This document shows, one piece after another, positions 30,581 to 32,311 of a stretch of DNA of 35,999 nt. The stretch is from Robiginitomaculum sp. (GTDB lineage: Bacteria; Pseudomonadota; Alphaproteobacteria; Caulobacterales; Maricaulaceae). The notes below the pieces were generated by a model that was given only the letters and a program-made list of their open reading frames with translations, did not search any database and was not told the DNA's origin. Position 1 is the first letter of the stretch. The number at the start of each line of letters is the position of its first letter. The stretch lies in the NCBI GenBank assembly GCA_023301505.1, contig JALZUP010000304.1, positions 1 to 35,999 on the forward strand, given 5' to 3'. The position numbers were made by a program, and so were the translations under genes.

Positions 30581-31463
30581 GTTTGCGAAATTTGAGCGTC
30601 ATGCGATCAGACTCGCCAATGGCTTCATATTTGGAGCCATCTTCAACCAAGAGCACATTATTATCATTTACGCGGCGATTACTTGGCGGCAATGTCCATA
30701 CGCCCACAGGGTGATCCGCTGTATCTTTAGGGTTTGCGTTCACTTCAGAGCTTCCGACAAATTCAAAGCCCGCATCACTTGCAAGTTTTTTCACATAAGC
30801 CTCTTGCACATAACCTGATAAGGCCCGCGGATCTTGCTCCTCTGTGGCAGGTAAACGGTGCTCTACAATACCCAGCGTGCCGCCAGGTTTGAGGACATCA
30901 TAGAAATCATCAAAGGCTTTTTCCGCCCAGCCGCCGCGCATCCAGTTATGAACGCTGCGAAAAGAGAGCACCATATCGGCGCGGCCAGACTCGCCCAGCC
31001 CGGCGCGGTTTCCAAATTGAACATAGCTCACTTGATCTGGCGAAGACGGCGTCACGAATTTTTCGATAAAGTCTCGGTTCGCATTTGCAAAAAACTCATT
31101 TCGGCTCTCAGGATATATCGCCCCAACAAAGTGTCCACCGCTTGCTTTGGCATAAGGCGCAAGAATATCAGAATACCAACCGCCCCCAGGATGAATTTCG
31201 ACAACCGTTTGATTGGGCGCCAGACCGAAAAACTCCAATGTCGATTTTGGGTGCCGATAAATATCGCGCGCCGCATTTTCACTGCGTGCAGGGTTCGCAA
31301 TAGCCGCGTTCAGAATGTCTGCTGGCTGGCCAATTGGGCGCGGCGCATCCCCGCCATTTTGCGCAGAACTCTCCGTCCCGCCAGAACAGGCCGAAAGCGC
31401 CGCTGCAAAGCCGCCAATAGCGCATATCTTTAAAGGGAGTAGAACCAGTTTATAATTAGGCAT
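30576..31463 (-). CDS. Exported class I methyltransferase-fold lipoprotein (COG4798-like)
   Basis: 295 residues. The signal peptide ends in a clear lipobox (ALSAC, Cys26), followed by a Gly/Ser/Ala-rich linker. The folded part has class I methyltransferase features: motif I VVEIHPGGGWYSDILAPY (from about residue 87), the acidic strand end around DMVLSFRSVHNWMRGGW, and FYDVLKPGGTLGIVEHR as motif III. This matches the predicted-methyltransferase group often seen with export signals in proteobacteria. S-adenosylmethionine is not expected outside the cytoplasm, so enzymatic activity is uncertain. The gene stands alone. Confidence 0.82.
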   Translation of the reverse strand: MPNYKLVLLPLKICAIGGFAAALSACSGGTESSAQNGGDAPRPIGQPADILNAAIANPARSENAARDIYRHPKSTLEFFGLAPNQTVVEIHPGGGWYSDILAPYAKASGGHFVGAIYPESRNEFFANANRDFIEKFVTPSSPDQVSYVQFGNRAGLGESGRADMVLSFRSVHNWMRGGWAEKAFDDFYDVLKPGGTLGIVEHRLPATEEQDPRALSGYVQEAYVKKLASDAGFEFVGSSEVNANPKDTADHPVGVWTLPPSNRRVNDNNVLLVEDGSKYEAIGESDRMTLKFRKP

Positions 31464-31625
31464 GCTTAGTCTCCTTATGTGGCCCCCCTATATTGGGGGA
31501 CTGATGGCAATTAATTTCAAGCAACCCTAACCAAGCTGCCCGCCACGCGCAAGACGCCTAGCCAATTGATTCCTCCTGACTGCAAACAATCTTTAAACAT
31601 CTTTCTCCTTTTAAACAGTTTGCCT

Positions 31626-31654
31626 CTTGAAAGGCCAAATCACATTTCCCACTT
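31626..31654 (+). promoter_or_regulatory. Sigma-32 (RpoH)-like promoter of the hsp20 gene
   Basis: CTTGAAA (31626-31632), a 15-bp spacer and CCCACTT (31648-31654) fit the heat-shock consensus CTTGAAA-N(11-16)-CCCATNT with one mismatch. The start of transcription would lie near 31661, giving a leader of about 60 nt before the ATG at 31720. Confidence 0.6.
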
Positions 31655-31660
31655 CCTATT

Positions 31661-31719
31661 AGGCAAATGCCACTTTCGGGTTTGCTTAAATCTACATTGC
31701 TTAGAAAAGGATGTTTAAA
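31661..31719 (+). promoter_or_regulatory. ROSE-like RNA thermometer in the hsp20 leader
   Basis: Two hairpins are visible. The first pairs AGGCAAA (31661-31667) with TTTGCTT (31681-31687). The second pairs ACATTGCT (31694-31701) with AGGATGT (31708-31714), leaving one G unpaired in TTGCT and a 6-nt loop. The Shine-Dalgarno AAGGA (31707-31711) is thus masked by a UUGCU element, which is the defining feature of ROSE thermometers in alphaproteobacterial small heat-shock genes. The hairpin should melt on heating and free translation. Confidence 0.72.
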
Positions 31720-32214
31720 ATGAGACATTATGATTTTACCCCGCTTCACCGTTCCTTGATCGGGTTTGACCGCATGGCCAGCCTAATTGACGCGGCGACA
31801 AAACTGGAAACCAGCCCTGGCTATCCGCCATATAATATAGAACAAATTGATGAGGAACATTATCAGATTGAGCTAGCTGTCGCTGGCTTTAGCGAAGATG
31901 AGCTTTCCCTTGAATCGCACAAAAATGTCCTGACCGTGACAGGGGCTGCAAAGCAAGATGAGGCCGCGCCCCAGCGCAATTTCGTTCATAGAGGCATTGC
32001 TGGGCGTAGCTTTGAGCGCCGTTTTCAACTCGCCGATCATGTCATCGTGCAAAGCGCGACTGTTAAAAATGGCTTGCTGAGCATTGCTCTGCGCAGAGAG
32101 CTACCTGAGGCGTTAAAGCCGCGCAAAATTGTAATCAGCTCTGATGCTGGTTCTGCAGCGAATGACAAAACTTTAACGTCCGCGTCATCCTCTGGTAAAG
32201 TCAAAGCTGCTTAA
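31720..32214 (+). CDS. Small heat-shock protein, Hsp20 family
   Basis: 164 residues from the ATG at 31720, which has AAGGA at eight bases; an ATG at 31711 overlaps that site and is unlikely to be used. The start MRHYDFTPLHRSLIGFDRM is typical of the IbpA/HspA class A proteins of alphaproteobacteria. The alpha-crystallin domain follows (YPPYNIEQIDEEHYQIELAVAG, then LTVTGAAKQD, and the end GLLSIALRRELPEALKPRKI). The IxI-like tail is replaced by a Ser/Lys/Ala-rich tail. Such proteins hold unfolding proteins for DnaK. Promoter and leader suggest dual heat control. Confidence 0.94.
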   Translation: MRHYDFTPLHRSLIGFDRMASLIDAATKLETSPGYPPYNIEQIDEEHYQIELAVAGFSEDELSLESHKNVLTVTGAAKQDEAAPQRNFVHRGIAGRSFERRFQLADHVIVQSATVKNGLLSIALRRELPEALKPRKIVISSDAGSAANDKTLTSASSSGKVKAA

Positions 32215-32270: not shown

Positions 32271-32311
32271 GACGGCCCGCCCTCCCCCTCCCTCAAGGCG
32301 GGCCGTCGCTT
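32271..32311 (+). terminator. Terminator of hsp20
   Basis: Perfect 11-bp stem GACGGCCCGCC (32271-32281) with GGCGGGCCGTC (32297-32307), a 15-nt pyrimidine-rich loop, then GCTTTT. It lies 57 nt past the hsp20 stop, just before the 3' end of the convergent dxr. Confidence 0.8.

Follow-up and report, generated by a model that had tools for sequence, protein, structure and literature searches.

The hsp20 Locus and Its Promoter

The DNA analysed here, referred to as the window, is a stretch of 35,999 nucleotides (contig JALZUP010000304.1 of assembly GCA_023301505.1) from a draft genome of Robiginitomaculum sp. of 3.84 Mb in 474 contigs. It carries an hsp20 gene of the ibpA type, which is preceded by a sigma-32-type promoter and a short leader and followed by an inverted repeat. 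The features of the locus are listed below, with coordinates, strand, description and, in parentheses, the evidence for each of them.

31626..31632, + strand: -35 element CTTGAAA of an RpoH (sigma-32)-type promoter (sequence, pattern scan, orthologue sites)
31648..31654, + strand: -10 element CCCACTT (sequence, pattern scan, orthologue sites)
31659..31689, + strand: hairpin I, 5'-terminal in the predicted mRNA (RNAfold, conservation, covariation)
31694..31714, + strand: hairpin II, the putative thermosensor, ACA-UU-[G]-CUU-AGAA-AAG-GA-UGU (sequence, RNAfold, covariation, model match)
31697..31701, + strand: ROSE anti-Shine-Dalgarno motif UUGCU, with unpaired G 31699 (sequence)
31707..31711, + strand: Shine-Dalgarno sequence AAGGA, 8 nt 5' of the start codon (sequence; paired in hairpin II)
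31710..31729, + strand: competing hairpin that uses coding bases, with the start codon in its loop (RNAfold energies)
31720..32214, + strand: hsp20, ibpA type, 164 aa, MRHYDFTPLHRS... (PF00011, 62.5 bits)
32271..32307, strand unassigned: inverted repeat GACGGCCCGCC...GGCGGGCCGTC, terminator-like (read by eye)

The encoded protein is the single match to PF00011 found in the whole genome and is 47% identical to E. coli IbpA in an alignment in which its R96 and Y35 correspond to R93 and Y34 of the E. coli protein. R96 is invariant in the 16 proteins aligned, and a match to this protein is encoded in 60 of the 61 genomes searched, its own genome counted. The start codon was set at ATG 31720 because the alignment of orthologues places it there. 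A second in-frame ATG (31711) overlaps the Shine-Dalgarno sequence, 9 bases 5' of the conserved start (31711-31722); a gene caller may set the start at that position, hiding the leader.

The two promoter elements, separated by a spacer of 15 nt and spanning 31626-31654, place the predicted transcription start at about 31661 and hence give a leader of about 59 nt. CTTGAAA-N15-CCCACTT corresponds, with an imperfect match in the -10 element, to the promoters of the RpoH regulon, the consensus of which has been printed as CTTGAA-N13..18-CNCCATAT (PMC3669281). The genome codes for RpoH (TIGR02392, 368.3 bits, cut-off 323.1) and contains RpoH-type promoters for dnaK (CTTGCAC-N14-CCCATAT) and groES (CTTGCAC-N15-CCTAAAT). 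The pattern CTTGAAA-N13..17-CCCAYTT matches once in the window and in none of 100 shuffles. Genome-wide, a slightly looser pattern gave 4 matches versus 3 for the reversed control, and the promoter call therefore rests on position and conservation and not on the motif alone. When leaders were scored with a simple weight matrix made for this analysis, 116 of 136 distinct leaders contained a site scoring at least 15, and shuffled leaders equalled the real promoter score in 1.8% of the cases on average. The sequence of the sigma-32-like promoter named in the original prediction was confirmed to the base, with comparable sites located before the orthologues, dnaK and groES.

Hairpin II and Its Predicted Melting

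Folding of 31661-31719 with RNAfold yields two hairpins at all temperatures from 20 to 50 C and so recovers the pair that had been drawn by eye in the original prediction. In hairpin II, an outer clamp is formed by ACA (31694-31696) and TGT (31712-31714), and inside it UUGCU (31697-31701) pairs with AGGA (31708-31711), leaving G31699 unpaired. The earlier description of this element (AAGGA behind TTGCT, one unpaired G and an ACA/TGT clamp) is correct to the base, as can be read directly from the coordinates.

Hairpin II is predicted to weaken steadily on warming, from -4.5 kcal/mol at 20 C through -1.8 at 37 C to -1.0 at 42 C, and to be unfolded at 50 C. The probability that all four bases of AGGA are open in the 59-nt leader rises about 20-fold, from 0.003 at 20 C to 0.065 at 42 C; in the leader alone the sequence is predicted to be shut at 20 C, in agreement with the thermometer originally proposed. 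In silico, hairpin II gains much stability when its bulged G is taken out (-5.6 versus -1.8 kcal/mol at 37 C), an effect like that published for single-base deletions in Pseudomonas (PMC3669281).

Conservation of Hairpin II in Orthologous Leaders

A search of genome contigs with a single protein found no relative, whereas a query made from an alignment did. The 146 leaders extracted, duplicates included, come from whole genomes (66, with two copies of the window among them) and from named contigs of genomes (80). In 142 of the 146 hsp20 leaders, the last 60 nt contain U(U/C)GCU with a Shine-Dalgarno-like tetramer no more than 14 bases on, and U(U/C)GCU..AGGA was found in 129 of 138 hsp20 leaders versus none of 31 groES leaders.

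For covariation of hairpin II, 88 of 108 distinct rows were aligned. The 108 are those that remained once the two window copies had been omitted along with L015, L044, L061, L063, L066, L067, L078, L104, L134, L142 and L145, which belong to another paralogue group or had their Shine-Dalgarno register picked wrongly or doubtfully; an alignment that included the window was out of register and contributed no counts. In the 88 leaders, 82.9% of the cells of the structure are paired and 119 cells are changed on both sides. The covariation score is 0.370, versus 0.176 +- 0.013 for shuffles (none of 500 reaches it), and sliding the register by 1-3 columns yields no score above 0.185. Two other counts stay within the range of the shuffles: 5 pairs have changes on both sides, a value equalled or exceeded in 46 of 500 shuffles, and there are 21 pair types, equalled or exceeded in 140 of 500. 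RNAalifold, run on the 88 relatives with no structure supplied, returns the same stem and the same unpaired G. Compensatory change, which the original prediction had put forward as a check, is thus strong in orthologous leaders without any contribution from the window.

A covariance model built from the 88 hairpins, and therefore blind to the window, has its best match in the 36-kb window at 31690-31718 (21.6 bits, E 5.6e-4, both strands searched). In the whole genome the same element ranks second of 12 matches with E up to 10, at an E of 0.059 that is not significant alone. The matches ranked 1 and 3 sit within open reading frames (frames were examined for ranks 1 and 3-7), so that among the top three only the window element precedes a start codon.

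A second, more distant group of hsp20 genes, from other families of the order, was also observed. The U(U/C)GCU motif was not found by the same motif scan in the leaders of L062, L064 and L068; L061, L063, L066 and L067 contain U(U/C)GCU..AGGA, in leaders that the promoter rule puts at 57-75 nt and with a hairpin-I unit (described below) in each.

Relation to Known ROSE Thermometers

ROSE-like leaders have been described as containing two to four hairpins in 60 to over 100 nt (PMC10474464). The window leader precedes a small heat-shock gene, has two hairpins and, with 59 nt, stands at the lower edge of this range. U(U/C)GCU is imperfectly paired with the Shine-Dalgarno sequence in its 3'-most hairpin (UUGCU 31697-31701, AGGA 31708-31711), the G opposite the latter (G31699) is unpaired both in RNAfold and in the RNAalifold consensus of the 88 relatives, and the structure is conserved with compensatory changes. 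The assignment to the ROSE type made in the original prediction stands, therefore, as regards the motif, the unpaired G and the compensatory stem, and fails as regards the Rfam models. The alignment of RF00435 spans the full leader but scores 16.4 bits (E 6), versus a gathering score of 45, and none of the ROSE models (RF00435, RF01832 and RF02523) reaches gathering anywhere in the window, so that the leader is not filed under any of the three.

The same models (Rfam release 15) reach gathering in E. coli and in 3 of 3 Pseudomonas-type loci, used as positive controls, and in 0 of 40 other alphaproteobacterial hsp20 loci. These 40 were varied by choice from the 146 (38 of the 80 loci L071-L150, plus L003 and L026) and include Agrobacterium, Mesorhizobium and Caulobacter. 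None of 20 further relatives reached a ROSE gathering score, the best obtaining 30 bits. Since the models also fail in 40 of 40 controls, the low score of the window is a gap in Rfam, uninformative on membership, and not evidence against the element. Current Rfam models thus miss the alphaproteobacterial ibpA-type leaders scanned, and an alphaproteobacterial ROSE family seems to be missing from the database.

Among known thermometers, the leader resembles the short ROSE of Pseudomonas ibpA (RF02523, ROSE_3), which also combines two hairpins, a sigma-32 promoter and an ibpA-type gene (PMC3669281). In Pseudomonas such ROSE-like leaders are established experimentally (primer extension, RACE, reporter, toeprint and probing work), and U(U/C)GCU paired with the Shine-Dalgarno sequence in hairpin II is common to them and to the window (PMC3669281). 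Three loci matching ROSE_3 (L203, L208 and L212) have a hairpin I with the same plan of bulged G, CC, loop and GG. Unlike the Pseudomonas elements, the window leader is alphaproteobacterial (it belongs to the genus of Robiginitomaculum antarcticum), has AU-rich stems, scores below the ROSE_3 gathering and would be derived from the longer leaders of its own relatives.

With rhizobial ROSE (RF00435) the leader shares the bulged-G sensor motif and a bulged-G 5' hairpin, and the whole model aligns, but the model has a length of 94 versus 58 bases here, and rhizobial ROSE contains three to four hairpins (PMC3669281) versus two. In E. coli ibpA (RF01832, ROSE_2; locus L172), the sensor hairpin contains TCGCT..AGGA and is preceded by a G-CC(TGAT)GG unit, although the leader, at 97 nt by the same promoter rule, includes one further hairpin. 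A bulged G in the anti-Shine-Dalgarno strand is found in ROSE-G as well; this thermometer, however, carries CUGCU, faced by another bulged G within the Shine-Dalgarno sequence, whereas the window has UUGCU and no opposite bulge (PMC12857270).

Two other classes were considered and rejected. A fourU thermometer needs four consecutive U on the Shine-Dalgarno sequence, and the anti-Shine-Dalgarno strand reads UUGCUU; ROSE-G was discarded because of UUGCU in place of CUGCU and because every base of AAGGA is paired in the leader fold.

The leader had been called compact, at about 60 nt. It has 59 nt by the promoter rule, close to the 61-62 nt of the two-hairpin ROSE leaders published for Pseudomonas ibpA (PMC3669281). 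Leaders are longer, at 124-128 nt and with several hairpins, in the four other members of the genus that have an orthologue (L003-L006). Those of Hellea and similar relatives measure 84-89 nt, and other short leaders are isolated (L081 with 65 nt, L010 and L050 with 66 nt each). The 59-nt form would derive from longer leaders, judging from the lengths found in its neighbours rather than from a tree. Within a single genus, leaders would then have shrunk from 124-128 to 59 nt with both modules kept, and short ROSE-like control would extend to a marine alphaproteobacterial genus.

Hairpin I, a Conserved Module with a Bulged G

Hairpin I has a stem of 10 bp (31659-31668 with 31680-31689), of which 8 bp remain should transcription begin at 31661. 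The stem is topped by a bulged G (31669), CC (31670-31671), a six-base loop (31672-31677) and GG (31678-31679), and the hairpin is predicted to stay folded at 50 C, with an energy of -7 kcal/mol, and at higher temperatures. When 135 distinct leaders were searched for one-base bulges two pairs below the loop, with no sequence requirement, the bulge on the 5' side was a G in 249 of 305 cases, versus 21 of 74 per shuffled set, and bulges on the 3' side had no comparable G bias in the same leaders; the G:CC/GG arrangement alone occurs 160 times. Once leaders with a promoter score under 14.5 are left out, hairpin-I units are present in 109 of 120 distinct leaders (one unit in 55, two in 54 and none in 11). 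The stem of the first unit begins within 5 nt of the independently predicted +1 in 90 of these 109 leaders, with a median position of +1.

The units were selected on their three inner pairs (129 distinct units), and the next three pairs outward, which were outside the selection, are formed in 96, 91 and 74% of them, versus 42-45% with the arms dealt anew. In two ungapped sets, each of equal loop length, covariation reaches 0.634 (25 sequences, the window included) and 0.715 (28 sequences), versus about 0.20 in shuffles (none of 500 as high in either set) and at most 0.173 in slid registers, scores that are inflated because the sets were chosen for pairing at the three inner positions.

The unit is found in 124 of 138 hsp20 leaders versus 2 of 31 groES leaders, the latter taken from relatives and the genome itself and driven by the same kind of promoter. 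The G:CC unit is also found outside the class. It is present in 22 of the 39 distinct leaders obtained from E. coli and from further non-alphaproteobacterial genomes in the phylum, E. coli ibpA included (41 loci, of which 2 without a protein match were dropped). The bulge of hairpin I is already part of the RF00435 consensus. No discussion of this G was found in the literature searched, and the word 'bulge' is not used in PMC3669281, although we do not claim that it is absent from print.

PMC3669281 describes the function of the 5' hairpins as incompletely understood. In Pseudomonas, disruption of hairpin I derepressed the leader, although hairpin II alone was still heat-responsive (PMC3669281), and this favours a role in folding. 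Hairpin I most likely serves a purpose other than sensing temperature, insulating hairpin II or nucleating its correct fold. Less likely, it is a binding site for the chaperone itself, for which its near confinement to hsp20 mRNAs in the comparison with groES, together with the conservation of R96 and Y35, leaves room.

Hairpin I could, alternatively, be a generic 5'-terminal stem-loop shielding heat-shock mRNAs from decay, a tentative proposal that fits the location of the first unit within 5 nt of the predicted +1. However, groES leaders, which have the same kind of promoter, contain the unit in 2 of 31 cases, and decay protection does not need the bulged G, which is nevertheless the base found in 249 of the 305 5'-side bulges.

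A two-input device, in which hairpin II would read temperature and the Y-[G]-CC-loop-GG-R hairpins would be read by a protein instead of aiding the fold, is somewhat unlikely. Its reader would most plausibly be the small heat-shock protein itself, since R96 and Y35 match the residues on which self-repression by E. coli IbpA depends. Such a reading would cover the whole span from the 59-nt form with two hairpins to 130-nt arrays with two units, and, if it were true, a leader would offer as many binding sites as it has units. The hairpin-I module is the better lead and the part worth an experiment, and the bulged-G rule (124/138 versus 2/31) offers a concrete target of a single base for the question of what 5' hairpins do.

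A Probable Short ROSE-Like Thermometer Upstream of hsp20

The promoter, the two hairpins, the Shine-Dalgarno sequence held by a bulged-G UUGCU and the compensatory evolution of both stems are seen by sequence and comparison. Together with predicted folding, they make a ROSE-like thermometer behind an RpoH-type promoter, as had been proposed, the best reading of the locus. The leader (31661-31719) is very probably (about 0.9) a short ROSE-like RNA thermometer that would add translational heat control to the RpoH-driven transcription of hsp20, and the element adds a case of the short form to the known thermometers of this kind. At growth temperature, the weak hairpin II would keep the 30S subunit off the Shine-Dalgarno sequence. 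On warming, it would open gradually and free this sequence, with hairpin I staying closed, as suggested by its predicted energy (-7 kcal/mol at 50 C) and by probing in Pseudomonas. Heat would simultaneously raise the level of hsp20 mRNA through RpoH.

The main job of a conserved hairpin II could instead be chaperone feedback, with Hsp20 repressing its own leader until unfolded proteins draw it away. There is a precedent in E. coli, where IbpA binds the ibpA 5'UTR through R93, and alphaproteobacterial IbpAs have been suggested by the same authors to keep 5'UTR binding (PMC10474464). R96 and Y35 of the window protein match the E. coli residues, and hairpin I is specific to hsp20 mRNAs. As the main function this is improbable, because a sensor that works by melting requires just such a U(U/C)GCU anti-Shine-Dalgarno stem, destabilised by a bulged G, and because ribosome binding to published leaders with two hairpins depends on temperature in vitro (PMC3669281). 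Feedback and thermosensing are compatible and not mutually exclusive.

A thermometer that is real but weakened in this genome, dominated by the 31710-31729 hairpin and hence little regulated by temperature, was also considered. With coding bases included, RNAfold prefers this competitor over hairpin II (-3.2 versus -1.8 kcal/mol predicted at 37 C), and single Shine-Dalgarno bases become unpaired with probabilities of about 0.5-0.8. The probability of a fully open AGGA then goes from 0.004 at 20 C to 0.044 at 42 C, less of an increase than in the leader alone. Nevertheless, hairpin II is transcribed before the competitor, RNAfold does not score non-canonical pairs, which ROSE sensors contain (as described in the literature), and a fully open AGGA is improbable in either fold. 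The orthologues, folded with 30 coding bases, also hold AGGA closed (median probability of being fully open 0.002 at 20 C, n=142), and such a weakening is accordingly quite improbable. Chance resemblance in an AT-rich intergenic stretch, in line with the low Rfam score and with other genomic sites scoring like the element in the model search, can practically be set aside, since position before hsp20, promoter, leader length and both hairpins agree and the orthologues have evolved by compensatory changes.

Two further sequence features were noted around the hsp20 unit. The inverted repeat at 32271-32307 is strong (11 bp with a 15-nt loop), separates the convergent genes hsp20 and dxr and is probably a two-way terminator; the hairpin scan did not list it, its loop exceeding the limits of that scan. 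Upstream, the divergent minus-strand gene with its start at 31463 may have a hairpin in its leader, formed by CCCCCC-TATATT-GGGGG at 31483-31499.
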